The position numbers were made by a program, and so were the translations under genes. Below, piece by piece: positions 1 through 56,750 of a DNA stretch of 64,000 nt. Source of the DNA: a virus; IMG/VR virus record IMGVR_UViG_3300005577_000030, positions 1 to 64,000 of that record, one strand, 5' to 3'. Numbering within the stretch: the first letter of the stretch is position 1; the number at the start of each line of letters is the position of its first letter. The notes beneath the pieces are model-generated. The model was not told where the DNA came from. It worked only from the letters and a program-made list of their open reading frames with translations, and did not search any database.

Positions 1-1
1 A

Positions 2-193
2 AAATATACGTTAGAAAATTATATTTTATGTTCTTATTATTTTGAAGATAAAAATTGTGAAAAATCTTCTAATAAAATAGCTCATATAATATTAAATATT
101 AATAATTCTGATGTTAATTTTTCTTATACTACTTCTAAAAAAGAAATTATTTATTCTGCAAATGAAAGAATAATACAAAATATTATAGATTAA
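2..193 (+). CDS. Partial small protein with IIQNIID tail (left edge)
   Basis: This is the 3' end of a gene that begins before the window. The frame is open from base 2 to a TAA at 191-193 and gives 63 residues. The last 15 residues, IIYSANERIIQNIID, are almost the same as the end of the next gene (IIYSPNERIIQNIIE). Upstream parts also align loosely, for example KYTLENYILCSYYF with the corresponding KYDLHNYTICCYS of the neighbour, so the two are tandem paralogues. I recognise no domain and the function is unknown. It is the first visible member of an array of six small genes sharing a C-terminal tail. Confidence 0.7.
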   Translation, partial: KYTLENYILCSYYFEDKNCEKSSNKIAHIILNINNSDVNFSYTTSKKEIIYSANERIIQNIID

Positions 194-196
194 AAT

Positions 197-583
197 ATGC
201 AATTTGAAGATTTAATATATTATGTGGAAAAATTTAAGTTTCAACAAAAACTAGAGCATGGATATTATATTGATAATAATGTAGAAATTATATTAAATAC
301 TGCAGATTTTCAAGTAATTCTTGTTGATCAGTTAAATGAGACTGATAATGGATTTACTATTATCCATAATGATAATGGTATTTTAAAATACGATTTACAT
401 AATTATACTATATGTTGTTACAGTGATAATATTAAAAATATTAATAAAGAAATTTTATTAAATAGTGCTTTGATTATTTTGAATATTAAATGTATATTAG
501 ATGAAAATTATAGTTATCCTATTCATGTAGAAGAAATTATTTATTCACCAAATGAAAGAATTATACAAAACATTATAGAGTAA
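197..583 (+). CDS. Small protein of the C-terminal-tail array (member 1)
   Basis: A 128-residue acidic, Ile/Asn-rich protein starting with ATG three bases after the previous stop. No Shine-Dalgarno sequence is visible, so translation is probably coupled to the upstream gene. The C-terminal half resembles the partial gene to its left, which points to tandem duplication. It ends in NERIIQNIIE, the tail shared with slight variation by all six genes of the array. There is no signal peptide, membrane segment or catalytic motif that I recognise. Function unknown. Confidence 0.75.
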   Translation: MQFEDLIYYVEKFKFQQKLEHGYYIDNNVEIILNTADFQVILVDQLNETDNGFTIIHNDNGILKYDLHNYTICCYSDNIKNINKEILLNSALIILNIKCILDENYSYPIHVEEIIYSPNERIIQNIIE

Positions 584-590
584 ATATTAA

Positions 591-941
591 ATGTTTAATT
601 CCTGGATAAATATTTTAAATTTTTTAGAAAAAACAAATATTTTAGGTATTAATTTAAATGATTATTTTAATTACCATAAAGATAATTTTTTAAATGAAAT
701 AGATTTTGCTGAGAATATAATTCCCAGTGAGTTTTCTAATAAAATATTTGAAATTATTTTTGTAAATTCAAGTTCATTTATATTAAATTTTTTCCTTATC
801 AAAAATATAACAAATCGTTGGGATATGTATAATTTAATAATTAAAGCGTATTATAGATTTAAAATGAATTCTGATAAATTATTTGAAGAACATTTAAATA
901 ATGTAATAAATGAAAATATAATTGAGAATATAATAAATTAA
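591..941 (+). CDS. Small protein of the C-terminal-tail array (member 2)
   Basis: A 116-residue protein rich in Phe, Asn and Ile. Its body does not visibly resemble its neighbours, but it ends in NENIIENIIN, a variant of the tail common to the array. It starts with ATG 7 bases after the preceding stop and lacks a clear ribosome binding site. The sequence looks mostly helical, with alternating hydrophobic and Asn/Lys positions. No family recognised, function unknown. Confidence 0.7.
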   Translation: MFNSWINILNFLEKTNILGINLNDYFNYHKDNFLNEIDFAENIIPSEFSNKIFEIIFVNSSSFILNFFLIKNITNRWDMYNLIIKAYYRFKMNSDKLFEEHLNNVINENIIENIIN

Positions 942-942
942 A

Positions 943-1344
943 ATGGAAATAAATATTAAAATAATTCTTATTGAAGTTTTAGAATTAATTGAAAAGCAAA
1001 TTAAAAATTATGAATTTCTTTATTATTTTAATGTAAATTATTTCTCCTTACCAAATGAATTAAATAACTTATTAAACTCAACATCTGATGAATATATGAT
1101 TAAATATCATAATTCTATTGGTAGAGTAATTAGAAACTGTTATCTTTGTACTAAAGATGGTTCACTTCCTATATTGTATAATTATTTTTTGGAAAATAAT
1201 ATATCTCATCCAGATGATATGAGTGATTTTATTTTGAGAATGTTTTGGCATATAAAACATAATAATCTATCTTACATTGATGATATTGAAACATTAACTA
1301 ATAAATTGTTCAAAGAAAATATAATTAAAAATATAATTGAATGA
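943..1344 (+). CDS. Small protein of the C-terminal-tail array (member 3)
   Basis: A 133-residue protein starting with ATG one base after the previous stop and overlapping the next start by ATGA (1341-1344), so the genes look translationally coupled. The body has no recognised domain. The end, KENIIKNIIE, matches the array tail. Asp/Glu- and Asn-rich composition suggests a soluble cytoplasmic protein. Function unknown. Confidence 0.7.
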   Translation: MEINIKIILIEVLELIEKQIKNYEFLYYFNVNYFSLPNELNNLLNSTSDEYMIKYHNSIGRVIRNCYLCTKDGSLPILYNYFLENNISHPDDMSDFILRMFWHIKHNNLSYIDDIETLTNKLFKENIIKNIIE

Positions 1345-1631
1345 CTAATATAAGAAAATTAATTAAAGAATTAAATAATAAATATAATCATAATTTAAAA
1401 TGTATAGACGAGATTAAGATTATAAAATCTGGTTACATTATAGTTAGATTATCATGCAAAAAATGTAATTGGAATAATTATATTTATTTAGGTGATGTTG
1501 ATTATACTTTTGATAAAGAATACAATTTTACCAAGATTAAAAAAATAGAATGTCCAGAATACATAGAATATGCTTATGATTATGATATTTTAACTTGTGA
1601 TGAGCAAATAATAAAAAATATAATAGAATAA
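1341..1631 (+). CDS. Small Cys-containing protein of the C-terminal-tail array (member 4)
   Basis: A 96-residue protein whose ATG overlaps the TGA of the previous gene. It has a CKKC pair in the middle and two later single cysteines (IECPEY and LTCDEQ), which could bind one zinc ion; this is an inference from spacing only. It ends in DEQIIKNIIE, the shared array tail. No other feature recognised, function unknown. Confidence 0.7.
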   Translation: MTNIRKLIKELNNKYNHNLKCIDEIKIIKSGYIIVRLSCKKCNWNNYIYLGDVDYTFDKEYNFTKIKKIECPEYIEYAYDYDILTCDEQIIKNIIE

Positions 1632-1633
1632 AT

Positions 1634-1918
1634 ATGATTAAATATGCTGATATTAAATATTATATAGATAAATATAAAAATGAATGTTATAATAAAGGCC
1701 CAATTACATCAATTCATTTATCATCAGATATATATTTAAATTTATGTTCAGAATTAAATATTACAGATAGTTCTTATTTTATTTATGATGAGTATAAATT
1801 TAAATTAATGTGGCAAATGTATGAAAATTACATAATATTTTTTAGTTCGTACCCTATGGGTATAGGGTACGATGTTTTAAGTGAAGAAGAAAGAATTATT
1901 AAAGATATAATAGAATAA
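1634..1918 (+). CDS. Small protein of the C-terminal-tail array (member 5)
   Basis: A 94-residue Tyr/Ile-rich protein and the last gene of the array, ending in EERIIKDIIE. It starts two bases after the previous stop. The coding sequence contains a perfect GC-containing hairpin near its 3' end (1847-1872), and an intrinsic terminator follows about 20 bases after the stop. No recognised domain. Function unknown. Confidence 0.7.
   Translation: MIKYADIKYYIDKYKNECYNKGPITSIHLSSDIYLNLCSELNITDSSYFIYDEYKFKLMWQMYENYIIFFSSYPMGIGYDVLSEEERIIKDIIE
1847..1872 (+). other. Perfect 11-bp inverted repeat inside a coding sequence
   Basis: The arms tcgtaccctat and atagggtacga are perfectly complementary and are separated by the loop gggt. 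It encodes part of SSYPMGIGYDV. In sequence this AT-rich, a GC-containing 11-bp stem with a tetraloop is unusual. No U-tract follows, so it is not a standard terminator. It could pause the ribosome or polymerase, stabilise the mRNA 3' end together with the terminator just downstream, or bind a protein. Confidence 0.6.
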
Positions 1919-1938
1919 TAATTAAATTTAATATTCTG

Positions 1939-1975
1939 AAACCTGTAAGTAGCAATATTTACAGGTTTTTTCTTT
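1939..1975 (+). terminator. Intrinsic terminator closing the small-gene array
   Basis: The 10-base arm aaacctgtaa (1939-1948) pairs with ttacaggttt (1959-1968) around a 10-base loop, followed directly by a T-rich run. This is the normal form of a Rho-independent terminator. It sits 21 bases after the last array gene and 42 bases before the next gene, so it separates the array from the virion genes as a transcription unit. Confidence 0.75.
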
Positions 1976-2016
1976 TTCTGGCGCATAAAATCACATATTC
2001 GTAAATAGGAGTTTTT

Positions 2017-2496
2017 GTGGATAAAAAAGCAGAATTAGAACTACTTAGGGATATTAAATCAAAAATTAAACAAAGTGATGTTGTTATTGATTTATTTAAA
2101 ACTCATGAAGTACTTCTTGATTATTTAGACTTATTCCCCATGACTTTTGCGGATTTAGATGTATCTGCAAGAACTGATCATGGAATTATTTATTTTAACA
2201 AAAAATTATTAGAAAAACAAGACCAAATTGATCATTATATGGTTCATGAAGTAACCCATGTTCTTCAGCAGTGTTTTGGAGATGTTCCTACACAAGGTGC
2301 TAATGATGGCAGTTACCTTGATAATAAATATGAACAAGAAGGATTTCAAGAACAAACTGAATATTTAAGTGATACCCGTAATGATCATGTAGCTGAAAAA
2401 TATATTGATAAAGTTTTAGATCATCACGATATTGATTCAAAAAAAGAACGTCAAGAAAGAAAGAAGAAATTATTACAATTAGCTGATGGAAAATAA
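2017..2496 (+). CDS. Zinc-metallopeptidase-like protein (HEVTH)
   Basis: A 159-residue protein starting at GTG, with the ribosome binding site AGGAG about 5 bases upstream. Residues 77-81 are HEVTH, the HExxH zinc-peptidase signature, within a hydrophobic helix continuing as VLQQCFG. Acidic residues about 35 further on (EYLSDTRNDH) could supply the third ligand. The C-terminus is a charged Lys/Arg/Glu helix. Length and motif fit small neutral zinc proteases found in phage structural operons. It lies 3 bases before a connector-like virion gene, so it might process a virion protein. The peptidase activity and its substrate are inferences. Confidence 0.6.
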   Translation: MDKKAELELLRDIKSKIKQSDVVIDLFKTHEVLLDYLDLFPMTFADLDVSARTDHGIIYFNKKLLEKQDQIDHYMVHEVTHVLQQCFGDVPTQGANDGSYLDNKYEQEGFQEQTEYLSDTRNDHVAEKYIDKVLDHHDIDSKKERQERKKKLLQLADGK

Positions 2497-2499
2497 ATC

Positions 2500-5382
2500 A
2501 TGGTTTGCACAGTTAATAAACCCTATTATATTCCACAAAATCAGTCTGGAATAAGGTTAGTAAATTCTTTAGGTGATGCCAATAATATAGAAATATACTG
2601 GTATTCTGCTTATGTTGATAATTTAAATTTTAATTTAGCTTATAATATTTATTTTTCTACCGAAGAAGAAAATGTCTTTTTAGAAGGACCGAAATTTTTA
2701 TCAACTAATTTAAATGGATTATATACAAAAATTTCTGGATTTACTCCTGGAGATACTTATTATTTTGCCGTAAGAGCTACTGAATATCAATCAATTTGGT
2801 ATAATCCTAATTTTTTGCCTGATGCTGAAGATGGATATATGCTCAAAGTATATCCCGAAACATTATTAGCAGCAAATATTTCAAATTCTAGCACAATAAT
2901 ACCAATTACTGATATTGATTTATTTCCACCTATGGGCGTTATTCAAGTAGGTTATGAATATATTAGATATGATTCTAAAGATATTCCTAATTCCACTCTT
3001 TTAGTTGCAGAAAGAGGATTTTTAAATACTAATATTAGATCTCATACTATTGACGGATATGACGGTTACGATCAATTAAGTCCAATAGTTAGATTTTTTC
3101 AAGGTTGTGAAGAAGTAAATACATTAATAAATGAAGAAGCGTCGAATTTTAATTATAATAACTTCGCTTATACTTTAGCGGATGGATATAAAGAAGAAAC
3201 AAAAGACTTATTAACTACTGATTTAAGTTTTACGGAAGCTCAACAAATAGATTTTCCTGTTTATCCGCAAGAAGGATGGAGAAGAACTGATTTAGATGCA
3301 TTTTTTAAAGGACAATGTTTAGATACTTATTTTGGTGGAGAATCTGGATGTGCTGACGGATATAATGTAGGTAATCAAATTCGAAATGTATCAATTTCAG
3401 ATATTAATGATCAACGTCAAGAATTTATATTGAATTTTACTGGCGAACCTGTAGTTTTGGTTAAAAGATTATGGAAAGGTATTCGTTGTAGTTGCTATGA
3501 ACCAAATAAAGAAAGTGCAGAAAGTAGGTGTCCGAACTGTTTTGTACCAGGAACATTGGTAAATACTGAATTGGGATGGAGACCTATTGAAGATATAAAA
3601 ATAGGAGAAAGAGTATTATCTTCTGATGGTTATTATCATAAAGTATTAAGAACCTTTAAAAATGATTATAACGGAGAATTACTTTCAATTCAATCTTCAG
3701 TTTCCTCACAACCAATTTTAACAACTCCTGAACATCCATTTTTGGTAATGCGTGGAAAACACCAAAGTTTAATTTCTAAACCATGTGATTCTTCATGTGA
3801 TACATATATTAATAATGGAGATGGTGATGGAAATCAAAGGCCTCATAATGTACAAATTTTACCATCAGGAAATTGGTGGGCTAGAGTTCATACTGTTGAA
3901 GGTAAACGTATAACATTAGGTTCACATAAAACAAAAGAAGATGCTGTTAATGCAATAATAAATTATAAAAAAGAAAATTATAAATTAGGTCATAATTTAG
4001 ATTGGGATGAAGCTGAAAATATCAATAAATATGATTGGTTAGTTTCTAAATGGAACAGTGAAATTAAAGATGTTGATATAATAAATATACCTCAAGAATT
4101 TTTAAAAAACACAAAATTAGGATTGCAAAGAAATGGTGTTGATAAATTTGAATTAAACGAAGAATTTTTATGGATTATTGGTATTTATATTGCTGAAGGT
4201 AGTTGTTCCAAGAGATCATTGAATTTTGCTTTACATAAAGAAGAAACAGTATTTCAAAATAGAATCATAACATTTTTTCAAAAATTAGGCTATAATGCTA
4301 AATTAATTACTTCATCAGAAAATGGCGTTTGTGTTGTGGTAAATAGTACAACATTAGCTTTATGGTTTCCAAAATGGTTAGGGCATTTATGTTACAATAA
4401 ACGAATACCTCAAGAATTAATGCAATTACCGGTTGAAAAAACCTGGGCTTTAATTAAAGGAATTTATGATGGTGACGGATCTAAATCAGATCATGAAATT
4501 GGGCAAACTTCAAGAATATTAGCGCTACAATTAACTGAATTATTACATAGAGTTGGAGAGCAACCATTAATAAGACGCCAACGTTCAAAAGTTCTTACAC
4601 CAAAAGGTAATGTTAGAAAATTATGTTACATTGTATCATGGGCAGAAGATACATTGAAAAATTCTAATAGAAAATGTAGGTGGAATTTTAAAGGTGAAAT
4701 TTTAGCAAGAGTAAATGAGGTTGAAAAAATTCAATATAATGGTCCTGTTTATAATTTAGAAATTGAAGATGATCATTCATATATTGTTGAAGGTATCATT
4801 GTACATAATTGTCATGGGACATCTTTTATTACCGGCTTTGAGCAATTTTATAATCCACGAAGATCTGATGGTAGAATTATGGTGCGTTTTGGACCTTATA
4901 CAGACGATGTAAAGCAAGAAGATTCAGGGTTAGAATCAATTGCAATTCATGACTGTAGAGCTTTAACTACCCCTGTTATTAAAGATAGAGATTTTATTAT
5001 TCGTTTTAATGAAGATGGAACTGAAGAATATAGATATGAAGTTTTAGATGTTACTAGAAATAAAATATTTTATGGCGTTTCTGGTGTGCAAAATTTTAAA
5101 GCTCAAAGAATTAGAAAAACTGATCCTATTTATTCTTGGAGAGCGATTAGATCCACTGCCACAATGCCAAACAAAGTTAATACTTCAGTTGGATTATTAT
5201 TAGGACCTAATAATACATTTATTCCTCATACGCACCAAATTGTATTAAATGAAAATATTACAGCTTTATCACAAGTAAATCAAACTACATCAATGTCAAA
5301 TGGGCATAATCATCCTATAATTAATGGTGTTATTCAGTCTTCTCCGATTGATGGACATACACATCAGATTATTAATTTTTAA
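2500..5382 (+). CDS. Connector-like virion protein interrupted by an intein
   Basis: The reading frame of 960 codons consists of an N-extein (1-346), an intein (347-770) and a C-extein (771-960); the mature protein would have 536 residues. Residues about 25-95 look like a fibronectin-III-type fold (EIYWYSAYVDN, then GLYTKISGFTPGDTYYFAVRA). Cys330, Cys332, Cys344 and the Cys joined after splicing form CSC...CPNC, a probable zinc site. The C-extein (RIMVRFGPY, then RDFIIRFNEDGTEEYRYEVL) resembles head-tail connector or neck proteins of myoviruses, but I cannot name the family. The last 50 residues hold PHTHQ, GHNHP and GHTHQ clusters that may bind metal. Five DGY tripeptides occur outside the intein. 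Confidence 0.65.
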   Translation: MVCTVNKPYYIPQNQSGIRLVNSLGDANNIEIYWYSAYVDNLNFNLAYNIYFSTEEENVFLEGPKFLSTNLNGLYTKISGFTPGDTYYFAVRATEYQSIWYNPNFLPDAEDGYMLKVYPETLLAANISNSSTIIPITDIDLFPPMGVIQVGYEYIRYDSKDIPNSTLLVAERGFLNTNIRSHTIDGYDGYDQLSPIVRFFQGCEEVNTLINEEASNFNYNNFAYTLADGYKEETKDLLTTDLSFTEAQQIDFPVYPQEGWRRTDLDAFFKGQCLDTYFGGESGCADGYNVGNQIRNVSISDINDQRQEFILNFTGEPVVLVKRLWKGIRCSCYEPNKESAESRCPNCFVPGTLVNTELGWRPIEDIKIGERVLSSDGYYHKVLRTFKNDYNGELLSIQSSVSSQPILTTPEHPFLVMRGKHQSLISKPCDSSCDTYINNGDGDGNQRPHNVQILPSGNWWARVHTVEGKRITLGSHKTKEDAVNAIINYKKENYKLGHNLDWDEAENINKYDWLVSKWNSEIKDVDIINIPQEFLKNTKLGLQRNGVDKFELNEEFLWIIGIYIAEGSCSKRSLNFALHKEETVFQNRIITFFQKLGYNAKLITSSENGVCVVVNSTTLALWFPKWLGHLCYNKRIPQELMQLPVEKTWALIKGIYDGDGSKSDHEIGQTSRILALQLTELLHRVGEQPLIRRQRSKVLTPKGNVRKLCYIVSWAEDTLKNSNRKCRWNFKGEILARVNEVEKIQYNGPVYNLEIEDDHSYIVEGIIVHNCHGTSFITGFEQFYNPRRSDGRIMVRFGPYTDDVKQEDSGLESIAIHDCRALTTPVIKDRDFIIRFNEDGTEEYRYEVLDVTRNKIFYGVSGVQNFKAQRIRKTDPIYSWRAIRSTATMPNKVNTSVGLLLGPNNTFIPHTHQIVLNENITALSQVNQTTSMSNGHNHPIINGVIQSSPIDGHTHQIINF
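3538..4809 (+). mobile_element. LAGLIDADG intein with an AP2-like insert
   Basis: The intein has 424 residues. It starts with Cys1 (codon 347, CFVPGTLVNTELGWRPIEDI, block A) and ends with ...YIVEGIIVHN (penultimate His, final Asn), followed by Cys+1, so every residue for standard splicing is present. Two LAGLIDADG-type motifs occur: LWIIGIYIAEGS at 557-568 and LIKGIYDGDGS at 651-661, giving an apparently intact homing endonuclease. Residues about 450-495 (GNWWARVHTVEGKRITLGSH) look like an AP2-type DNA-binding domain between block B and the endonuclease. The insertion falls inside a CPNC motif, a conserved site typical of inteins. Confidence 0.9.
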
Positions 5383-5448
5383 CAATTAAATTGATAATAT
5401 CGCTGCATAATACAGTATTTTAATAGATTTTAAAAAAGGACTACGGAT

Positions 5449-5835
5449 ATGGATATTCAAAGTATATTTTCAATACAGACGGTATTTTTAGCTTTAGCAG
5501 TAGGCGTATTAACTCAAATGGTTAAAAATATAGTAGAAGCTAAATGGCCGAATTTACCCGCTAATAAAAATTGGGGCAAAGTATTTATTCCCAGTATATC
5601 ACTTGGAATTGGCATGGCATTATCTGCAGGTACAAGTGTCATTCCAGGATTCTTAGCTAATGCAGTTTTACAGGATAAAATTATATACGGTATTATATCT
5701 GGATTTTTCTCTTCTTATGTATTTAGAGCTGCAAATGCTTTTTTGAAAAAAGAAGTTCCGGATGAATCAATTAATCCTCCTGCAATTCCAGCTCCACCAA
5801 AAGTACCTTCTTTCCCTACTGATAAAGATAAATAA
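5449..5835 (+). CDS. Small membrane protein, holin-like
   Basis: A 128-residue protein with a good ribosome binding site (AAGGA) upstream of ATG. Hydrophobic segments lie at about residues 8-25, 47-70 and 77-96. A short charged tail is followed by a Pro-rich end (NPPAIPAPPKVPSFP). Size, two to three membrane spans and a polar C-terminus fit phage holins or small membrane anchors. No lysin gene is adjacent, so lysis function is a guess. Transport or superinfection-exclusion roles are possible alternatives. Confidence 0.45.
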   Translation: MDIQSIFSIQTVFLALAVGVLTQMVKNIVEAKWPNLPANKNWGKVFIPSISLGIGMALSAGTSVIPGFLANAVLQDKIIYGIISGFFSSYVFRAANAFLKKEVPDESINPPAIPAPPKVPSFPTDKDK

Positions 5836-5886
5836 AACGTTATATAATATAAATATGTTAACTAGAATTAATACAAGGTGTGATAA

Positions 5887-8800
5887 ATGAGTAATTTTCC
5901 TACAGTTTTAGATGATGATAATTCCATTTATCGTATTGATGATAATTTATCTGAATTAGGTGTTTTTACTATAAATCAACTAAGATCAGCTGTTTTTGCA
6001 ATTGAAGGTTATCTAGGATTAACTGGTCCTGGATCTTTATCTTCAATGTCAAGCCGTTTAGATGTATCATTAAATCCTGACGGAACAATTAAAGCATCTG
6101 CTCTTACAAGTGTTGGTTTAGCTACTTTACCAATTGTTAATTCTCAAGTTGGAACAAATGCTGGTATTTTAGAATCTAAACTTCATTTAGATTATGGAAC
6201 ATCGGATTTACATACCTTAATTCAAGCAAATTCTACATTGTTAAATTCTTTATCTGTATTTGAAGCAGCTTTAGAAGTTAAAGTTAATAGTCATATAGCT
6301 GGTGGTCCGGCTTCTAATTTAAGACATGTAGCTAGTCATATTGATATCAATGCTCATCCTACTGATTCACGAGATGGATCTTTTACTTGGGGTGGATTAA
6401 TTGATAAAGATGGCTATCAATTAACCGCTACTAATGTTGCTGGCGCCTTAGATCAAATTAATACAACTTTAACTGGACATCAAAATCAAGTACTTGACGC
6501 TCATCCTGCTTCAGCTATTTCTGTAGATACTTCTAATTTTTCAGAATTATTAGCTACTTCGGAAAATGTTCAACAAGTACTTGAAAACATTGATGATATT
6601 GAATTATTACAATTAGGCACTCATAGAGCTACTCAACATTCAAATGGAATTCCAAAAGCCGCAAGATCGTTAAATTTGAGTTCAGCTACTACATTGGGTT
6701 CGGATGGATATAATTTAGAGGTTGTTAGTTCTACACCTTGTCAAACTTTCGTTGCCCATAATCCTCCTGGTATTGCCCCTATAGATAATGTTTCTGTAGG
6801 AGATAGTATTATTACATTTAAGCCAGCAACAAATGTAGGGTCTGTATTTGATGCTAAATTTTCTCAAGTTAAAGTTGGCGATATTATTAGAATAAATTAT
6901 GGATCAATTGAAGATATTCGCAGGGTAGAATCAATTAGATTTACTCCAGGTTCAGAATGGGTTATTAGAATAAATGGAGTTAATTTAATTGATACTGATG
7001 GTTATACAGCTTTAGCTCGTATTGATCGTCCATTATATGATTCTAATACTAGCGGTGTATTGGCTGTAGCTGCCGCAAACCCTGTTCCTTTGGCTAGTTT
7101 TGCGATATTAGGAAGTGTAATTATAGGCGATCCGAGAGGGGCTACTGCTCTCGGTATGAATTTTGATGTTAATAAATTTACTTCTAAAAATTATAATTTA
7201 TATTTAGAATTATATCCTACAGGAAATCCTGCTGACCATGTTATTAAATTACCTGCTGTAGATGTAACTGGTAATGCTGGAGCTACTCCTGGATTATATA
7301 CTTTGGATGATATTGTTACTGCTACTAATAATGCATTTAGAGCTACAGGTTATAATTTTAGATTTATTGCTTATTCTGTAAATGGTAATTTTGGAATTAT
7401 GTTAGCAGATTCTATTGATGGAGCTTCTTTTGCTATTATTAATGGGTCTAATGCTACAGGTTCATTAACTAATGGAACTTATGTACATAATGTTATTGGC
7501 GATGCAGATGGACTTCATATTGATCCATTAGGTTTTGGATTTGAAAATGCAAATTTAGCCAGCCCTACGTATCAAGCTAGTTGGCTAGATGCTACTGCTG
7601 CTCAAATTCCTACTAAAATAATACATCCAGTTAAATCACGAAATTATATAGTTAACGGCCGTCCATTTGATAATTTTAAACAAAAAGATTTAACTACAAA
7701 TGGTTTCTGGGTTGCTGATATTGATTCAAAAAACATTACTGGTATATCTGTAGAAGTTACTTATAAAGTTAATACGGTTTTAGATACTGCAGGATTAAAA
7801 CCTGGTAAAACTATTATTGTTCAGCCAGCTGTTGGATATTCGGATCCACTTTATAAAGATGTTGATTATGGTAGATTTATTATTAAATCAGTTGTATTTA
7901 ATAATTGTCACTGTGTAAATGATTACACATTAATTACAGTTATAAATGGCGTGCATGGTACTAGTAATCCATTAAGTATAACTTCTAATACTGGTTTACC
8001 TGTAAGATTATATTTTGGTGAAGATTCAGTTGGTTTTGATGATCAAAATATAATTGATCAATCGGATACTTCTATAAATTATCATAGATTTCATGAAATT
8101 TATATCTCAGATCAAAAAACTACATTTTCTCATGAACGTGCAAGAATGGCATATACTACCGAAACGTCTAATTTATTAGATACTAGTAATTGGCATATTC
8201 TTTCAGTTTCGCCTAAGTTTAGAGGATATAAAGATACATCTGGATCATTATTAAATAAATACATTAGATTATTAATCACTAATTATAATAGTCAAAGTGG
8301 TGAATTTGATGGATATTTAGGAGAAAGAGATAATGTTACAAACCATATATTTAATACTGGTAGATTGATTCGTGGTAAAAAGAACGTTCCAGTTAAATTT
8401 TATGATGATACAGATTTAGATTATATTGAATTTGTTTTTAAAGATGAAAGTACAAGCTTACCTACTACTGTTATTCCAACCAATAAATGGCTGGATATTG
8501 AAATTTTTCCATCATTATTATTAGATCAAGAGCTTTTACCTTTAGCTAGTTGTGAAGTCAATTGGACTCCATTAGCTGGTAGAAATATAATTTCATACGT
8601 TAAAAATTTAAAGCAATATGGAAGTATTTCCGAGTTAGAATTTACACAATCAGCAGTTAATTTTATAACTTCTGGTGATAGATTCCTTCATGGAAATGGT
8701 ATTTTATCAGGATTTGATGCCGATATAGCTTTAGGTTCAAATAAAGTTTTAGTACATGGTGGTACTGCTTTAGTAAATGGTAAAATTGTAACTTCTAATA

Positions 8801-45556: not shown

Positions 45557-46147
45557 ATGACAATGCTATCAATTTCAGTTCCAGAGAATATTTCTAAAAT
45601 ATTACAATCAATATCATTAAATAGCGAAATAATCCAAGGAGACAAGTCTGATCATTGTACTTGTTTTTATTTTGAAGATGACGGTATGGAGATTGAAACT
45701 GTATTAAAAATAATACCATTAGTTTATAAAATTACACAGAAAATTAAACCATTTATTGTAAATATTAAATCTTATGATAGTTTTTCTGAAGGTAAATATG
45801 GGTTTCCAATTGTTTCAAAAATAAATAGTAAAGAATTAATTAAATTACGCAATGATATTAAAGATATATTTGAAGAAAACGATATAGATTTTTCTAAAAA
45901 ATTTCCAAAATTTGTACCGCATATTACTCTAGCTTACGCAAAAAAAGAATGTTCTGGAAAATTTGATGAGATAGCATTTCCGGTTCAATCTATTTCTTTA
46001 TATTATAATACTGATTCTAAACAAAAAGAAAATCTATATGTCGAGTTTCCGTTTGGCAAAATAATTAAAAATTCAAGTTCGTTTCTTGACCATTTTGCCG
46101 GATATTTTGAAAAACTTGCCTACAATAAAAATTTCTTCAAAGCATAA
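45557..46147 (+). CDS. 2H phosphoesterase (LigT / 2'-5' RNA ligase-like)
   Basis: A 196-residue protein with two catalytic HxT motifs: SDHCTCFYF (His33) and VPHITLAYA (His122). Spacing of about 90 residues and the surrounding hydrophobic strands fit the 2H phosphoesterase superfamily. Members hydrolyse 2',3'-cyclic or 2'-5'-linked nucleotides; phage Acb1 of this superfamily destroys CBASS cyclic-nucleotide signals. An anti-defence role is possible, but RNA repair or another cyclic phosphodiesterase activity fits the motifs equally. It starts 12 bases after the dockerin protein and reads with it. Confidence 0.75.
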   Translation: MTMLSISVPENISKILQSISLNSEIIQGDKSDHCTCFYFEDDGMEIETVLKIIPLVYKITQKIKPFIVNIKSYDSFSEGKYGFPIVSKINSKELIKLRNDIKDIFEENDIDFSKKFPKFVPHITLAYAKKECSGKFDEIAFPVQSISLYYNTDSKQKENLYVEFPFGKIIKNSSSFLDHFAGYFEKLAYNKNFFKA

Positions 46148-46349
46148 AAATTATATATTAATAAAAAATTTAAAATTCTATTTAAATAGAAGTTCACGCA
46201 AAGATTTTATATTAAAAATAATAAGTGGAGATCCTCCTACATATTTTTTATTATCTCATAATTCTGGAGAATTTGCTCCGGATAGAGTTAATCGATTATT
46301 AATTATGAATAGAGTAAATGTAAAAAGAAAATTTAAAAGAGTAAAATGA
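46086..46349 (+). CDS. Small basic protein, start uncertain
   Basis: An open frame of 87 codons whose end overlaps the next ATG by ATGA. It has no ATG near its beginning; the first start-like codon is TTG at 46086, which would overlap the previous gene by 62 bases, and other TTG codons lie at 46095, 46107 and 46116. The body (KDFILKIISGDPPTYFLLSH, then basic NRVNVKRKFKRVK) looks protein-like. Function unknown. The ATGA coupling is the best evidence that it is translated. Confidence 0.4.
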   Translation: MTILPDILKNLPTIKISSKHKNYILIKNLKFYLNRSSRKDFILKIISGDPPTYFLLSHNSGEFAPDRVNRLLIMNRVNVKRKFKRVK

Positions 46350-46561
46350 GAATAAGAAATTTAAATAAAAATTTGGAAATATTAAGAGCTGTATCATGTT
46401 CTAAAACATCTATGTCATCATATGATTATAATACATCTAGAATTTTTCATATTAATTATAAATTAATAAATTTTTTACATATTAATATTATTAATAAAAG
46501 ATCAATTGAAGAAAATGTTATAAAGGCAGTTTTGCAATATAAATGTAAAATAAAAAATTAA
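46346..46561 (+). CDS. Small hypothetical protein
   Basis: A 71-residue basic, Ile/Asn-rich protein coupled to the previous gene by ATGA and ending 11 bases before the first glycosyltransferase. No motif, signal or membrane segment recognised. Function unknown. Its place at the junction of the tail operon and the glycan locus is the only context. Confidence 0.45.
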   Translation: MRIRNLNKNLEILRAVSCSKTSMSSYDYNTSRIFHINYKLINFLHINIINKRSIEENVIKAVLQYKCKIKN

Positions 46562-46572
46562 GAAAGTATTGA

Positions 46573-47673
46573 ATGAAGGTAAAAATACAACAATTTTTAT
46601 TTGGTAAAAATCATAGTTGGAGTGTAGTTGGAAAAGAAATTGGCCGAGAATTAATTCATCGCGGTCATGAAGTTCATTTTATTTCTACTGATGGAATTAA
46701 TAAAGAATTTATAGATTCTGATCTAGCTAAATATATTAAATATTATCCAGATAATAATTATGATATAAATTATTCTTATACCGCCCCAAAGAATTTTATT
46801 AATTATTTAAATGGAAATAAAGGAATTAGATTAGGATGCTGGAATTATGAATGGCCGTATATGCCGCGAACTTTTGTTCAAGCTATAGCGTCTAAAAATA
46901 ATGTAGATAAATTTTTACCATCATCTAAATGGTTTTATGATATTTGTTTGCAAAATAAAATTCCAGAAGAAAAACTTTGTTTAATGCCTCATGGTATTGA
47001 TGTTGATAAATTTATTAACGCTGTACCAATGCAATTAAAAACTGATAAAAAAATTAAAATATTAATTAATGTCACTCAATTACATATAAGAAAAAATTTA
47101 CCAGGTACATTAAAAGCTATTGGAGAAGCATTAAATAAAAATGATGATGTATGTTTGGTATTGAAGGTTTCAGATACTAAACCAAAAATGGCATTTGAAT
47201 TATCTTTTTCGCAAGTTTTTAATGAATTTAATAAAAAATATCCAAATCATGTAGAATGTTTAATATTAAAAGAATATATTCCAAATATAGAATGTTTATA
47301 TAAAGCTTGTGATATTTTATTTTTATTAAGTCATGCTGAAGCTTATTCTTTAACTCATGCAGAAGGTTTAATTTCTGGGCAGGTGGTTTTTTCTAGTAAT
47401 TATGGAGGAGCCTTAGATTTTTTAAATGATAATAATTCATTTTTGATTCCAGGTAAAATGGTGAGAGCCCCTACTTTATCTCAATATTGGGAACCTAATG
47501 TTTTGAATGGACATTTTGAACCTGATGTAAAAATTGCCGCTGAAAAACTACGATATTGTATAGATAATTTTGAAACTGTTAAAAAAGAAAAATTATCATT
47601 TGTAACTAAAAATGATATAGATAATTTTAGATGGGGCAAACAAGTTGATATTTTAGAAGGATTAGTTAAATGA
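46573..47673 (+). CDS. GT4-type glycosyltransferase
   Basis: A 366-residue GT-B enzyme. The N-terminal domain shows GRELIHRGHEVHFIST, the linker has MPHGIDVDKF, and the C-terminal domain has NVTQLHIRKNLPGTLKAIGE and the E-x7-E motif EAYSLTHAE followed by GLISGQVVFSSNYGGALDFL. These are the marks of family GT4 retaining transferases using a nucleotide sugar. It is the first gene of the glycan locus and overlaps the following GT2 gene by ATGA. Confidence 0.85.
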   Translation: MKVKIQQFLFGKNHSWSVVGKEIGRELIHRGHEVHFISTDGINKEFIDSDLAKYIKYYPDNNYDINYSYTAPKNFINYLNGNKGIRLGCWNYEWPYMPRTFVQAIASKNNVDKFLPSSKWFYDICLQNKIPEEKLCLMPHGIDVDKFINAVPMQLKTDKKIKILINVTQLHIRKNLPGTLKAIGEALNKNDDVCLVLKVSDTKPKMAFELSFSQVFNEFNKKYPNHVECLILKEYIPNIECLYKACDILFLLSHAEAYSLTHAEGLISGQVVFSSNYGGALDFLNDNNSFLIPGKMVRAPTLSQYWEPNVLNGHFEPDVKIAAEKLRYCIDNFETVKKEKLSFVTKNDIDNFRWGKQVDILEGLVK

Positions 47674-48413
47674 AAGTATCTATAATAATACCTGTATTTA
47701 ATAATTGGAATTTAACTAAAGCTTGTTTAAATGATTTATCTAAATTACCTGATGATCATGAAATTATTTTAGTTGATAATGGATCTACAGATGAAACTAA
47801 AAATATATTAAATTTATCTAAAAATCAATTACCAGTTAATTTTGTTTTAATTAGAAATGAAGATAATTTAGGATTTGCTAAAAGTTCAAATCAAGGAGCT
47901 AAAATAGCAAAAGGTGAATATTTAATATTTTTAAATAATGACATTAGGGTTAAAAAAGATTTAAGTAATTGGACAAATTTATTAACTAAAGTAGCTGAAA
48001 ATGATTGTTTGGTTAGTCCTACAGTAGGTTTATTAAATGCTAGCTTTAATTTTATAAATGAAAATAATATTAGAGAAAGTGATGATATAATAAATAATGT
48101 AGATGAATTTAAATATTATAATCGATATCCAAATTCAATTATTTATTTAAGTGGATGGTGTTTATGTGCTAAAAAAGAAATATTTAATAAATTAATAATA
48201 AATGATTATGATGGACCGTTTACTGAAGAATTTTTTACTTATTTTGAAGATACTGATTTAAGTATTCGGGCTAAAAAATTAAATATAAAAAAGGCTCAAG
48301 TATATATTCCATTAGTACATTTTGGAAGAATGACAAGTACAAAAGTAGGATTACAAAGTTTATATAGAGTAGCAAGGGAAAAATTCATAAATAAATGGAA
48401 GAACCAACTTTAG
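47670..48413 (+). CDS. GT2-family glycosyltransferase
   Basis: A 247-residue GT-A enzyme. SIIIPVFNNWNLTKACLND at the N-terminus, LVDNGSTDET (UDP/dTDP-sugar site), NNDIRV as the DxD-equivalent and FEDTDLSIRAKK as the acceptor/catalytic segment are all present. The closest look is to rhamnosyltransferase-like GT2 proteins. No membrane segment, so it is cytoplasmic. It overlaps both its neighbours and probably adds one sugar to a lipid- or protein-linked glycan. Confidence 0.85.
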   Translation: MKVSIIIPVFNNWNLTKACLNDLSKLPDDHEIILVDNGSTDETKNILNLSKNQLPVNFVLIRNEDNLGFAKSSNQGAKIAKGEYLIFLNNDIRVKKDLSNWTNLLTKVAENDCLVSPTVGLLNASFNFINENNIRESDDIINNVDEFKYYNRYPNSIIYLSGWCLCAKKEIFNKLIINDYDGPFTEEFFTYFEDTDLSIRAKKLNIKKAQVYIPLVHFGRMTSTKVGLQSLYRVAREKFINKWKNQL

Positions 48414-48538
48414 AAAATCAAATATATTTTATATGTAGTGTATTTATGAGGATAGTATTATTTTCATTATTTGGCTTATTTTTCTGTATATATGTAATAT
48501 TGATCCTTATATTGGCTATAAAATTATTATTTCCATGA
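48395..48538 (+). CDS. 47-residue single-span membrane peptide
   Basis: ATG at 48395 opens a 47-codon frame overlapping the end of the GT2 gene by 19 bases. It begins MEEPTLENQIYF and continues as an unbroken hydrophobic stretch (VLFSLFGLFFCIYVILILIL) ending in LLFP. Its stop overlaps another ATG (ATGA, 48535) that opens a 20-codon frame running into the next GT gene start. The long hydrophobic run speaks for a real membrane peptide, perhaps anchoring the glycan enzymes. It is short and lacks a clear ribosome binding site, so it remains tentative. Confidence 0.4.
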   Translation: MEEPTLENQIYFICSVFMRIVLFSLFGLFFCIYVILILILAIKLLFP

Positions 48539-48589
48539 CTTTATTAGGTGCTGTTATTGGGGTTGGTGATGTTTTGAAGAGGATGAGTA

Positions 48590-49417
48590 ATGGTTAATTT
48601 GCACGTATTTACTTTATCATGGAATGGTTTAGATAAATTAAATAAATTAAAAACTGGTTTATTTGATAATTTAAATTACATAAAAGAAAATAAAAATATT
48701 AATTATTTATGGAATATACGTGATAATGGAAGTAAAGATAATACAGTAAAAGAAGTTAATTCATGGATTTCTGAAGGTTTACCGATTAATCTTACAGAAG
48801 TTGGACATAATCGATTAAATTTTTCACAGGGAATGAATTGTATTTTTAAAAATATCATTTATTCTGATAATGATTTAATATTATTGTTAAATAATGATAT
48901 TACATTTGAAGATAATAAATCACTTTTTAATATGTTGAATTTAATGAAAGACGATGTTGGAATTGTGGGTTCTAAATTATTATTTACAGGAACTAATAAA
49001 TTACAACATGCTGGAATTGTATATTCAAATTATCGTGGTGGTAATGCTTGGAATTATCGAACTGGAGAAATTGATGATAGTGATGCTTCAAAAAATCGAT
49101 ATTTTCAAGGAGTGTCTGGAGCTGTATTATTAACTAAAGCTAAAATTTATGAAGAAGTAAATGGATTATCAGAAGATTTACATTGGGCTTTTGATGATTG
49201 TGATTATGGTTTAAAAATCAAACAATTAGGTAAAAAAATTATATATTGTGGAGATACTAAAATTTTTCATGAAAATTCAGCTTCATTAAAAAAGAATCCG
49301 GTTAATACTTTATTTTTAAATGAAAATTTAAGAATATTTAAAACTAGGTGGTTTGGCAAATATGAAATTGATCATGATAAGTATTTAAAAAATAAAAATT
49401 ATAATGAAATTAAATGA
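48590..49417 (+). CDS. GT2-family glycosyltransferase
   Basis: A 275-residue GT-A enzyme. It has IRDNGSKDNT, LLNNDITFED (DxD-equivalent), LQHAGIVYSN, RYFQGVSGAVLLTKAKIYEE and FDDCDYGLKIKQLGKKI, the order seen in large GT2 transferases of the rhamnosyltransferase/wcaA type. Its ATG lies shortly after GAGG. It overlaps the following gene by ATGA. Donor and acceptor cannot be read from sequence. Confidence 0.85.
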   Translation: MVNLHVFTLSWNGLDKLNKLKTGLFDNLNYIKENKNINYLWNIRDNGSKDNTVKEVNSWISEGLPINLTEVGHNRLNFSQGMNCIFKNIIYSDNDLILLLNNDITFEDNKSLFNMLNLMKDDVGIVGSKLLFTGTNKLQHAGIVYSNYRGGNAWNYRTGEIDDSDASKNRYFQGVSGAVLLTKAKIYEEVNGLSEDLHWAFDDCDYGLKIKQLGKKIIYCGDTKIFHENSASLKKNPVNTLFLNENLRIFKTRWFGKYEIDHDKYLKNKNYNEIK

Positions 49418-50370
49418 GTGTTTGTTATTTTCCTTTTTGTCCTGGTATTCCTTGGCAATTAAATTCAAGTAGAGTAGTCCAACCTACATTAAATAGTGAA
49501 ATTTGGTTTAAAGCTATAAATGATAAAAATCCTATAATTACTTGTTTTGGTGGATTATTTGAAACTTTTTTTGCTTTATCTTATGCAGAAGCTTTAAATA
49601 AATTAATACCCACCAAAAAATTAATATTTAATGGCAATCCTACATTTAATAAATTAATTAGTTTAAATGGTTTAGCCACTTCGGGAAATTTAATTTCTAA
49701 AAGTGAAGTTGAACAATATCCATTACCATTATTTTTCGATCAAGAAAATAATGTTTATTTTAATTGTTTATTTAATTATTTAAAAATTTATAATAATATT
49801 AATGTTTACGCATACAAAAATTTAAAAGCATTAAGTAAACAAATATTTATAAATTCATGTTTACCTTGGAATATTAATTATATACCTAAATTAAGAAACT
49901 TAATAGAACCACCTGAATTTGCTAAATGGAAATTATCTAAAAAATTTAATATAGATAAGCCCTTTGTATTAATTTTTCCAGATAAAACAGGATTATCTGA
50001 GCATCCACAATCTGCATTAAAATGGTCAATAAATGATATTAAATCATTTATATCAATGATTTATGGTTCTGGAATGGAGTCAGTAATTGTAACAAAAAAT
50101 ATTGGAAGATATACAGGAATTAATAGTTTGGTTATTGAGCCAAATTTAGAGCATATTTTTTATTTAATTGAAAAATGTGGCGTTATATTAGCAGAAGAGA
50201 TAGATTTTTTATTAATCAGTTTAATGATTTCGAAAAATGCAACAGTGGTTAGTAGGAAAAATAAATATCAATATTCTATTAAATCTAATAAAAAATTTTA
50301 TAAAACTGATATAAAAATAATTGAAAGTAAAAAATTAATTCCATTTGAAGTTTATAAAGCAATTAAATAA
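49414..50370 (+). CDS. Possible GT9-like (heptosyltransferase-fold) protein
   Basis: A 318-residue protein. NPIITCFGGLFETFFALSYA near residue 40 resembles the N-terminal Rossmann start of GT-B enzymes, and FVLIFPDKTGLSEHPQSALK near residue 190 plus VILAEEIDFLLISLMISKNA near 265 recall the C-terminal domain of GT9 heptosyltransferases. The match is loose. Its position inside a run of glycosyltransferases supports a transferase or related role. Confidence 0.5.
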   Translation: MSVCYFPFCPGIPWQLNSSRVVQPTLNSEIWFKAINDKNPIITCFGGLFETFFALSYAEALNKLIPTKKLIFNGNPTFNKLISLNGLATSGNLISKSEVEQYPLPLFFDQENNVYFNCLFNYLKIYNNINVYAYKNLKALSKQIFINSCLPWNINYIPKLRNLIEPPEFAKWKLSKKFNIDKPFVLIFPDKTGLSEHPQSALKWSINDIKSFISMIYGSGMESVIVTKNIGRYTGINSLVIEPNLEHIFYLIEKCGVILAEEIDFLLISLMISKNATVVSRKNKYQYSIKSNKKFYKTDIKIIESKKLIPFEVYKAIK

Positions 50371-50393
50371 TTTGATTGTAAATTAAAGGTAGT

Positions 50394-51146
50394 ATGAAAA
50401 TAGCAGAATCTGTAATTTCTATTATGATGGTCACTTATAATCGTTTAGAATTAACTAAACAAACTATAACTAATATTTATGAAACTGTAAAAACTCCATT
50501 TGAATTTGTTATTATTGATAACGCTTCTACTGATGGAACCATAGAATATTTAAATGAATTAAATAAACAATATAATAATATACATTTAAAATTTAATAAA
50601 ATAAATAAGGGAATTGGTTGGGGAAGGTCTCAAGCTCTTTTATTGGCGGACACATTAAATACAGAATGGTATGTTACTATAGATAATGATGTTTTATTTC
50701 ATAGTGGCTGGTTAGATGAGTGTATTGAAATATTAACTCATAATAAACATTTTGGAGCTATTGGTGTAAGTTTTGAACCTACAGTGTATCCAATTATTAA
50801 GTCAAATGGATATGAATTTGAATATAAATCTAAAGGTAATTTAGGAACAGCATGTATGGTTTTTCATAAATCATTACATAAAATGATTGGATTTTTTAAT
50901 ACTACATTTGATAAATATGCTCATGAAGATGCCGATTGGGGAAATAGAGTTGTTTTTGCTGGATTAAAATTAGGATATATTAAAACTCATGGTACTCATA
51001 TAGGTGAAGGGGTAAATGATCAAGGCACTTATCGTGAGTTTAAAAATAAACAACATCAAGATAACCTTCAAAAATATTATAAAGATTATACATTATATGC
51101 TTCTGGTAAAAAATCATTATATATTCCATTTAAGGATAATGAATGA
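50394..51146 (+). CDS. GT2-family glycosyltransferase
   Basis: A 250-residue GT-A enzyme. SIMMVTYNRLELTKQTITNI, VIIDNASTDGTIEYLNEL, WYVTIDNDVLFHSGW (DND as the metal-binding triad) and DKYAHEDADWGNRVVFAGLK are the standard GT2 elements. It is preceded by AAAGGTAGT and overlaps the next gene by ATGA. The last 30 residues are basic. Specificity unknown. Confidence 0.85.
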   Translation: MKIAESVISIMMVTYNRLELTKQTITNIYETVKTPFEFVIIDNASTDGTIEYLNELNKQYNNIHLKFNKINKGIGWGRSQALLLADTLNTEWYVTIDNDVLFHSGWLDECIEILTHNKHFGAIGVSFEPTVYPIIKSNGYEFEYKSKGNLGTACMVFHKSLHKMIGFFNTTFDKYAHEDADWGNRVVFAGLKLGYIKTHGTHIGEGVNDQGTYREFKNKQHQDNLQKYYKDYTLYASGKKSLYIPFKDNE

Positions 51147-53224
51147 ATGATATTGAATTAAATGGATTAGAAATAAAACCATATATTCATTCTCAAAAAA
51201 ATTGCCGACCCTCAGCTTCTGGCTATGTTATGGAGGCTTTAGATTCTTCTTTTATTATAGATTTATCAAATTTTCAAAATATATCTAAGATTGCAATTAT
51301 AACTAAACGAATATCTGGAAATGGTAAAGTTATTATAAATGATTTAAACTTTGATGTTTTATCTAAAGATTCCAATATATTAGAAATAGGTCCCACAAAA
51401 ACATTAACTTTTTTAAGGAATGATTTATGTATTGGTAAAATTATTATTGCTAATATTAAAATATCAATAAATGATGTACAATTAAATATTAATCCATCAT
51501 TTATTGATCAAAGAATTATTGCTCAAAATCCAGAAAATTGGCGAAATTTACTTATGAAGTGTGGGGAAATAAGGGGAATTAAGTTAGTTAATAATAAGCT
51601 ATTAGTTTCAGAAGGTGCCTTTATTCAAAAAAGCGATTTAATAAATTATATCGAAACTGAACCACCCAATTGTTTTATTAAATCAGATGTGATTAAATTC
51701 ATATATCCTTGTGAAATAACGAATATTTCATTTAGTGAAAATACAATATTAGTCGATAAATCAAATACAATTTATAAACATTTTAATGAGCCTGTTAATA
51801 CTATGATTAATGTATTACCTAGTATTTTAGCTAATGACAACTTTACCGCAAAAGAAAATATGACAAAAAGTGATAATATTATATATGATTCTTTAGAAAA
51901 TGGTATAAATCCATCAACATTAACTAAAGTTGATGATGTAGAGGCCCATCAAGGTAAAAATAATAAAGGGGCTATTATTAAAAAAGATGGAACTTTTTGT
52001 GTTCCGTTGTCTATGTTGCAACCAAATATGCAGTATGTAGTTGTTGTTAATATTAAGAAAATAAATGGAAATGGTAAATTTGGTATTCAAATAACTACAA
52101 CTGATAATATTCCTAAAGGTTCAGTTGTTACAGTTGCTACAGATCGTGAAACAGAATTATATCTTAAATTAAATACTGATTCTGAACCGACCCCTGGAAA
52201 TTCCTATATGTTAAAATTCTTCCGTCCAGAAGAATCTAGTTTTGGAGATTTATTATTAAATCGTTTGATGGTAATTAGCGGTATTGCTTTGGCTAATTTA
52301 GTTAATCCACAAAATAATAAACCAGCTCAAATTAAAGTAAGTAAATTTAATAATAAAAATGAAACAGACCCAATTAGAGGATTAGCTAAACTTTATCATA
52401 GAAATTTACCACATAAAAAAACTAATCCTATTTTTAATTACTCTGGAGAAATTTCTCTTAAAAGCAGTTCAGCTATCAATTGGTTTAATAAATTAAGTCC
52501 TCTTTGTTCTAAAATAAAAGTTACAGATAATGCAAAAATATTATTTAGTGAACTAACTTCCTTAAATTCAGCTGATATTATATTTTTGGAACCATTTACG
52601 GAAGACATATCATCTGAAGATATGAATATTTTACAATGTGCAAAAATTATTATTTCTTCATCCTCAGAAAATGTAAAATTATTAACCGAATTATTTCCAA
52701 ATGTTTCAGTTAAATTGCTAGAACGTACTTGGCCAATGATTGAATCAACGCCAATAAAACATTTACCTAAAGATTATTGTGTAATGTTTCACAGAAATGC
52801 TGAAATTACACATAAAGTTGTAAGTAATTATCCTAATAATTATCCACCATTAGTATTAATCGGGGCACAACATTCTTATAATGAAAATATAATTCAATTA
52901 AATGAATATATTAGTTATGATAAAATTTTAGACGTATTAATTAATTGTAAAATTCTAATTGATTTTCCTGAATATAATCAGTATATGTCAGGATTGTTAT
53001 CATTAGCTTTTGATTATGGTATCCCTGTTGTTACTTCTAATAATTTTGGAAAAGATAAATATAATTGTAAATTTTTAATATCAAATAAAAATGATAAAAT
53101 TAATTTGCCAGAAGTCGAGAATATTCAAAAAGCAATAGTTGAATTATTAGAATTTAAAAAACTTGAAGTTAATTCAGAACATAATAAAAAATTAGATGAA
53201 TTATTTTCAACAATATTTAATTGA
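51143..53224 (+). CDS. Two-part protein: beta domains plus GT-B-like C-terminus
   Basis: A 693-residue protein. Residues 1-130 (GYVMEALDSSFIIDLSNFQN) and about 250-400 (KKDGTFCVPLSMLQPNMQYV) look like beta-sandwich domains similar to carbohydrate-binding modules. The C-terminal 250 residues look like GT-B halves (ADIIFLEPFTEDISSEDMNI, DYCVMFHRNAE, LINCKILIDFPEYNQYMSGL, AFDYGIPVVTSNNFG). I infer a glycosyltransferase with acceptor-binding modules. It could instead be a glycan-binding protein. It overlaps its upstream neighbour by ATGA. Confidence 0.5.
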   Translation: MNDIELNGLEIKPYIHSQKNCRPSASGYVMEALDSSFIIDLSNFQNISKIAIITKRISGNGKVIINDLNFDVLSKDSNILEIGPTKTLTFLRNDLCIGKIIIANIKISINDVQLNINPSFIDQRIIAQNPENWRNLLMKCGEIRGIKLVNNKLLVSEGAFIQKSDLINYIETEPPNCFIKSDVIKFIYPCEITNISFSENTILVDKSNTIYKHFNEPVNTMINVLPSILANDNFTAKENMTKSDNIIYDSLENGINPSTLTKVDDVEAHQGKNNKGAIIKKDGTFCVPLSMLQPNMQYVVVVNIKKINGNGKFGIQITTTDNIPKGSVVTVATDRETELYLKLNTDSEPTPGNSYMLKFFRPEESSFGDLLLNRLMVISGIALANLVNPQNNKPAQIKVSKFNNKNETDPIRGLAKLYHRNLPHKKTNPIFNYSGEISLKSSSAINWFNKLSPLCSKIKVTDNAKILFSELTSLNSADIIFLEPFTEDISSEDMNILQCAKIIISSSSENVKLLTELFPNVSVKLLERTWPMIESTPIKHLPKDYCVMFHRNAEITHKVVSNYPNNYPPLVLIGAQHSYNENIIQLNEYISYDKILDVLINCKILIDFPEYNQYMSGLLSLAFDYGIPVVTSNNFGKDKYNCKFLISNKNDKINLPEVENIQKAIVELLEFKKLEVNSEHNKKLDELFSTIFN

Positions 53225-53230
53225 GGTATA

Positions 53231-54187
53231 ATGACTGAAAAAGTAAAAGTTAATTTAATTTATACTCCCCAAAATGTTGATGCTACATCTCCTAGATTTC
53301 AAAATGAATTTGGTGAATTATGGATGAATGCACATCATAAATCAGATATGCATAATATTAGTATGAGTTTTTATTCAGCTAATTATCCAAACCCGATAGC
53401 TTTAGGTGATTCAATATATGTAATTGAACCTAAATGTGTTTCAGAGCGAGATTATGAAATTGAATTTTTAGAACGATTTAAATATATTTTTACTTGGGCT
53501 GATAATGCTTTTAAAAATACTAGAATTCAAAATAAAATAATTCCATTAAATCATCCAAGTTGTTGGGGTATGGATAAACAAGGTTTTGAAAATAGAAAAA
53601 AACAATGGGCTTCTTGGAATAATAGAAGGGATGAAATTACTTTTATTGCTAATAATAAAGCTTCAACACATAGAACAGAATTATATAGTGTTAGAGTTAT
53701 GTTAGCTCAATGGCTAAATAATAATTCAGAGAAATATAAAGTTAGTTGGTATGCTCAAGGAAATATTACTCAGCCATATTTTAAAGGTACAATTGGGGAA
53801 AAATCAGAAGTATTAAATAATGTCAAATTTTCTATTTGTACTGAAAATTGCTATGATGAAAAATATAGCTCTAATTATTTTACTGAGAAAATGCCTGAAG
53901 TTTGGTTTTCAGGAGCCGTTCCAATTTATACAGGATGTTATAATATAGATAAATTTGGCTTTCATCCGGATTCTTACATTGATTTACGAAAATTTATGGA
54001 TCATAAAGCAATTAAATATAGAGAATTATTAAATGAAATAAATTCTTTTAATGAAGAAAAATACAATAAATATTTAGAAGCTGTTAATTATAATATATAT
54101 AATGCAGATTTATTTAATATAATTTCGGAAGAAAAAGTCATGAGTAAAATGATTGAAACTTTTTATAAGGAAAAGAATGGACTATAA
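53231..54187 (+). CDS. GT10-family (alpha-1,3-fucosyltransferase-like) enzyme
   Basis: A 318-residue protein. The segment KFSICTENCYDEKYSSNYFT followed by EKMPEVWFSGAVPIYTG corresponds to the donor-binding signature of GT10 fucosyltransferases (ENs...YxTEK...aGxVPIyxG). FIANNKASTHRTELYSVRVM fits the preceding helix. GT10 enzymes use GDP-fucose or a related GDP-sugar. The protein lacks a membrane anchor, as bacterial GT10 enzymes often do. It partly overlaps the next GT2 gene. Confidence 0.8.
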   Translation: MTEKVKVNLIYTPQNVDATSPRFQNEFGELWMNAHHKSDMHNISMSFYSANYPNPIALGDSIYVIEPKCVSERDYEIEFLERFKYIFTWADNAFKNTRIQNKIIPLNHPSCWGMDKQGFENRKKQWASWNNRRDEITFIANNKASTHRTELYSVRVMLAQWLNNNSEKYKVSWYAQGNITQPYFKGTIGEKSEVLNNVKFSICTENCYDEKYSSNYFTEKMPEVWFSGAVPIYTGCYNIDKFGFHPDSYIDLRKFMDHKAIKYRELLNEINSFNEEKYNKYLEAVNYNIYNADLFNIISEEKVMSKMIETFYKEKNGL

Positions 54188-55651: not shown

Positions 55652-55656
55652 GAGAA

Positions 55657-56637: not shown

Positions 56638-56645
56638 GGAATATT

Positions 56646-56750
56646 TTGTTTGGGTATCAATATAGTGCTAAATTAACTCCCGAGGAAAGACAAAGAATTA
56701 TTAATTCAATCATTAAAAATATTAAAAAATCAAGATATATTTGTTATTAA
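56646..56750 (+). CDS. Possible 34-residue basic peptide
   Basis: A TTG start at 56646 preceded by AAGGA at good spacing opens 34 codons (FGYQYSAKLTPEERQRIINS, then a Lys-rich helix) that end 6 bases before the carbamoyltransferase start. The gap would otherwise be 119 bases. The sequence looks like an amphipathic basic helix. Tentative: a short frame in AT-rich DNA can arise by chance, but the ribosome binding site is better than most nearby. Confidence 0.3.
   Translation: MFGYQYSAKLTPEERQRIINSIIKNIKKSRYICY

Follow-up and report, generated by a model that had tools for sequence, protein, structure and literature searches.

A short C-terminal peptide shared by many otherwise dissimilar small proteins in one lineage of huge phages

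The window analysed here, the first 64 kb of the 84,595-base record IMGVR_UViG_3300005577_000030 (G000), opens with six adjacent small genes on the plus strand (array A) whose products end in a common short peptide, referred to below as the tail. Gene 1 (2..193) is 5'-truncated at the contig end and its product ends in ERIIQNIID, encoded at 164..190; gene 2 (197..583) encodes a protein of 128 amino acids with no known domain that ends in ERIIQNIIE (554..580), and the two are paralogues with 44% identity across 52 residues. Gene 3 (591..941; 116 amino acids) is weakly DUF6794-like and ends in ENIIENIIN (912..938), and gene 4 (943..1344; 133 amino acids; tail ENIIKNIIE at 1315..1341) has a body of the Pfam family DUF6794 (PF20594; E 2.1e-11), to which gene 3 shows a weak match over 35 residues (E 0.001). 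Gene 5 (1341..1631; 96 amino acids) overlaps gene 4 via ATGA; it encodes a CxxC...LTC zinc-ribbon-type protein ending in EQIIKNIIE (1602..1628) and joins a zinc family that is expanded in a second array, array B (hhalign E 1.4e-8, with the tail included in the alignment). Gene 6 (1634..1918; 94 amino acids; tail ERIIKDIIE at 1889..1915) has no known domain and gave no match among the family libraries searched. An intrinsic-terminator-like hairpin on the plus strand (1938..1969) closes array A ahead of structural genes; two hairpins were found, against 0.1 expected from shuffles. There is also an eleven-pair hairpin within the coding part of gene 6 (1847-1872). All six ends are exactly those listed in an earlier note on this DNA. 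In that note the bodies looked unrelated beyond the first pair, which is right in that they do not form one set of ordinary paralogues alike over their full length, and too strong in that gene 5 belongs to the zinc family and gene 3 weakly resembles gene 4.

The consensus of the tail, [L/I][T/S]x[D/E][E/D]x(I/M)I(K/R)(N/D/E)II(E/K), covers about 9-13 residues, one form being TCDEWIIKNIIE, with E, D, N or K at the final position. Its isoleucines are spaced i, i+1, i+4, i+5 and form a single hydrophobic face, and the mean helical moment is 0.41 for tails compared with 0.29 for 11-mers from the bodies. AlphaFold2 gave the tail as a C-terminal helix in both families modelled, the zinc ribbon and the DUF4116 solenoid; in the latter the repeats have a predicted local distance difference test score (pLDDT) of about 94-98 and residues 181-190, the least certain part, stand at 73, a low value at the tail that would be consistent with an exposed end. 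Codons were compared over the 20 tail copies of G000 (6 in array A and 14 in array B). Apart from two exceptions, the first two codon positions are constant in both isoleucine pairs; position 3 varies, and synonymous codons alternate at every isoleucine site. Because positions 1 and 2 are kept while third positions vary, the peptide itself is the conserved entity, as had been proposed from array A.

A search of this phage and its relatives for the tail, which the earlier note had suggested, returned 189 predicted genes across seven records, and the tail is thus present in related phages. When 2.9 million viral contigs were scanned for the pattern, few records matched: there were repeated matches in IMGVR_UViG_3300005577_000027 (G001, 131 kb), 3300028920_000022 (G002, 459 kb), 3300027740_000003 (G003, 435 kb), 3300012228_000091 (G004) and 3300020201_000067 (G006), and one in 3300020203_000032 (G005). 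The numbers of predicted tail genes in G000-G006 are 19, 23, 54, 79, 3, 6 and 5, which for the first four records corresponds to 19/84, 23/234, 54/871 and 79/797 of all predicted genes; the gene sets are simple open reading frame calls, in which short frames are possibly spurious, and the strict tail rule overlooks near variants, many of which were seen. As controls for these counts, the same test shifted 9 residues upstream found 0 or 1 per genome, reversed patterns gave 0 matches, and the frequency of the motif inside proteins was used to predict its frequency at the ends. The full nine-residue motif is C-terminal in 14, 16, 45 and 55 proteins of G000-G003, whereas the internal rate predicts 0.000-0.013 (in G000, 14 of the 84 C-termini against 0.006 expected). 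Up to about a tenth of the proteins of a phage carry the tail, and most of these are small. It has 0 matches in each of phage G, Atu_ph07, SCTP-2 and pT24, and a single match in an uncultured 642-kb phage. The strict pattern was met only three times in 84,980 bacterial and archaeal genomes, each time antisense to another gene, and these matches were dismissed as chance on that account; single matches in five viral contigs (L046, L047, L055, L059 and L060) also look like chance. The tail is confined to one lineage of huge phages.

This lineage is made up of uncultured phages of about 435-460 kb. G000 is collinear with 272-352 kb of G002 and 210-283 kb of G003, and G001 with other parts of both; the four records thus represent a single lineage, as fragments or as large members. 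About 70 proteins are conserved in G001-G003. The lineage has only distant cultured relatives, the matches being a phage G baseplate protein at 30%, Bacillus phage terminases at 26% and a Tenacibaculum phage ribonucleotide reductase at 54%. A search with a structural protein of 2217 amino acids returned two related loci. DUF6794 occurs in 31 of 297 genomes of the phylum Bacteroidota, and this distribution, together with the reductase match, hints at a host in that phylum. Array B, which lies outside the window (G000 73,447-76,378), comprises 14 tail genes encoding H...CxxC...C zinc-ribbon-type paralogues. The genes on either side of it have homologues that are near neighbours in G002 and G003, with no tail genes found between them; the arrays are thus lineage-specific insertions at differing places. 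Elsewhere in the window, a structural protein contains an intein-like stretch (2500-5382; CFVPGTLVNTELGWRPIEDI ... IIVHNC), and the ribonucleotide reductase at record position 80,786 likewise enters an intein-like segment (weak PF14890 match). A long row of glycosyltransferase- and sugar-nucleotide-type genes (45557-64000) is largely collinear with G002 and G003, and no Rfam family was found within window positions 1-6000.

The bodies that carry the tail are diverse. After the last 13 residues had been cut off, 184 bodies fell into 71 clusters, an upper bound on the number of true families: 80 zinc proteins formed one cluster, 61 bodies stood alone and the rest made up a few small families. 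Gene 5 was one of the lone bodies in this clustering, yet hhalign ties it to the zinc family, and further near-tail proteins were linked as well. Tail-bearing bodies include the zinc ribbon and the DUF4116 solenoid (both as modelled), DUF6794, a RuvC resolvase and strongly hydrophobic membrane proteins, and the DUF4116 and DUF6794 bodies of some tail proteins scored above the Pfam cut-offs. The zinc family has no convincing solved relative either by sequence or by fold (best E 1.5). NCBIfam gave no match for the six window genes, the zinc family or three other tail proteins, and PHROG matches were weak only. The tail is missing from homologues outside the lineage. This applies to the DUF4116 proteins of SCTP-2, Atu_ph07 and Slicky01 and to 11 of 11 DUF6794 reading frames at Bacteroidota loci; a RuvC-type resolvase (L061 3647-4210) ends in REQMIKDIVE, and its orthologues in four sister phages end otherwise. 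In G003, nine proteins have CSSC inside their first 13 residues, possibly a second shared terminal motif.

At the DNA level, an overlap of 1-4 bases with the following gene is seen for 101 of 187 tail genes, compared with 339 of 1826 other genes. The lysine and arginine codons at -5 favour AAG, AGG and CGG in G002 and G003 only (in G003, AAG accounts for 58% at the tail lysine as against 10% in the bodies), and this choice makes AAGGA- or GGGA-like sites of the type that these phages use. The tail DNA often doubles as the ribosome-binding region of an overlapping gene downstream, a secondary role in which it supplies that gene with its Shine-Dalgarno site and start; in this way tail genes form stacks of overlapping cassettes, gained and lost as blocks. 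The earlier suggestion of a cassette system is in part borne out by these overlaps, by the embedded ribosome-binding sites and by the lineage-specific insertion between genes that elsewhere lie next to each other. Coupling does not explain the peptide, however, as the motif keeps its place relative to its own stop codon, at distances from -4 to over 200 bases from the next start, persists where no close gene follows (in at least 22 tail genes the next gene is 25 or more bases off, and 12 face the opposite strand) and is kept in G000 and G001 without the Shine-Dalgarno version. Gene 6 retains its tail although the terminator hairpin comes directly after it, with no coupled downstream gene.

On balance we favour the explanation that the tail, as an amphipathic helix at the C-terminus, serves as a docking tag for one shared partner that is most probably a phage product. 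The proposal in the earlier note that a terminal peptide common to unrelated proteins acts as a sorting, docking or degradation tag is supported here, as unrelated folds carry the tail. Through the tag, numerous fast-evolving accessory proteins would be able to bind a single partner; the bodies would perform different jobs and the tag would set their destination or attachment, which may be the capsid, a protease or another hub. Residue -4 is mostly N in G000 and G001, E or D in G002 and D in G003, alike in zinc and non-zinc bodies; it tracks the phage and not the body, the pattern expected if all tails of one phage fit one partner. A more specific form of the proposal, in our view somewhat less likely than not, is a previously unknown recruitment system in which a hub encoded by the phage binds the one C-terminal helix and so gathers a large, exchangeable accessory set (at most about 10% of the proteome) to be packaged, injected or built into a common complex; new bodies would become clients by gaining the tail. 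The lineage also encodes DnaJ, trigger factor and peptide deformylase (L032 1947-2876, 13426-14622; L033 6226-6726). Tail genes adjoin DnaJ in G001, G003, G004 and G006, although this may be one shared hot spot and would be weak evidence for a partner.

Several points weigh against a docking tag. Both the existence of the partner and binding as the function are things that we infer, and some of the tail codon choices are under DNA-level selection. The phage-specific variants could stem from duplication within a genome, gene conversion or base composition (AAT versus GAT). The mean helical moment of the tails is reached by 21% of body 11-mers. In the zinc family the last cysteine comes after the tail's T/S, and a tail that adjoins the last zinc ligand may be just part of the fold.

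Another possibility, an unlikely one in our judgement, is that the tail is a capsid-packaging signal, with the proteins that carry it loaded into the head and injected. The nearest known parallel to the tail as such is the capsid-targeting sequence at the N-terminus of T4 internal proteins, of which a packaging tail would be the C-terminal counterpart. These proteins (Ip1-3 and relatives) are small and diverse, have only a short terminal peptide in common and are encoded at variable loci (PMC12373910, PMC3012670); the likeness, one terminal peptide across small proteins that are otherwise unrelated, holds here and the architecture is the same, mirrored. However, the T4 peptide is N-terminal, is cut off by the prohead protease and is found on a handful of proteins per phage, whereas the tail is C-terminal, has no recognisable cleavage site and is carried by 23-79 predicted genes in each of G001-G003; hydrophobic membrane proteins and the RuvC resolvase are among its bearers. 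In G002 and G003 a comparable shared peptide at the N-terminus was not found. Packaging gains some weight from the 440-kb Salicola phage SCTP-2, in which several proteins of the DUF4116 region have a common N-terminal MKxKHITQYLFES, where DUF4116 proteins of G003 have the C-terminal tail, although the function of this SCTP-2 peptide is likewise unproven. In that phage (L085 5697-19227), several genes, part of them with other bodies, begin with MK[VI]xHITQYLFES or with a shorter version of it; the record has 8 such sites, and the peptide resembles a capsid-targeting sequence.

A degron or adaptor-binding tag that shortens the life of early accessory proteins appears improbable. An extreme C-terminal position on all kinds of protein, including membrane proteins, would suit a protease signal, and bacterial C-terminal degrons of the ssrA type are likewise short C-terminal peptides recognised independently of the body. 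The ssrA tag is added by transfer-messenger RNA and ends in LAA. The tail, by contrast, is genetically encoded and found in phages only; its final residue is E, D, N or K and not a small hydrophobic one as in LAA. Since the strict pattern was not found in bacterial genomes, a host protease would need to recognise a phage-only signal.

Self-association, in which the tails bind each other and build mixed oligomers of small proteins, seems more doubtful still. The isoleucine pairs provide the hydrophobic face, tail genes stand in operon-like rows that are probably co-expressed, and phage-specific variants would be predicted; against this, 9-13 residues are short for a stable coiled coil and many tail genes are solitary. 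Import into a phage nucleus was also considered for the tail and is without support. PicA-dependent import in Chimalliviridae resembles it in that jumbo phages there recognise numerous cargo proteins selectively and in a phage-specific manner, but in that route it is a surface that is recognised, and no N- or C-terminal signal was found (PMC11087766). The phiKZ shell protein (gp54) had no sequence match in G001-G003, although shell proteins diverge strongly.

There is very little chance that the peptide is a functionless by-product of a junction for translation coupling and recombination (a Shine-Dalgarno site with an ATGA overlap): the excess of overlaps and the Shine-Dalgarno-favouring codons at -5 would fit, but the explanation is largely refuted by the anchoring to its own stop rather than to the next start, the tail of gene 6 ahead of a terminator, the 339 overlapping genes without a tail, the peptide kept in G000 and G001, and the isoleucine codons that vary almost solely at position 3. 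Least probable, and refuted for the tail proteins taken together, is a single fast-evolving family of ordinary paralogues with bodies diverged past recognition, as the zinc family, which gene 5 joins, is a true expansion but the set as a whole is not homologous over its full length (71 clusters, distinct Pfam families) and its DUF4116, DUF6794 and RuvC bodies have independent tail-less homologues elsewhere.

The earlier note knew of no described system with this tail, and a literature search, largely without subscription papers and without preprints, likewise found nothing relevant on a shared C-terminal phage motif, which suggests that the tail as a common docking signal is previously undescribed. 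One short motif brings together, as one functional set, small giant-phage proteins of unknown function that are otherwise dissimilar. Should the tag recruit them to a hub or to the capsid, it would name many candidate injected or anti-host proteins from sequence alone, and the tail itself would be a small, possibly transferable tag.
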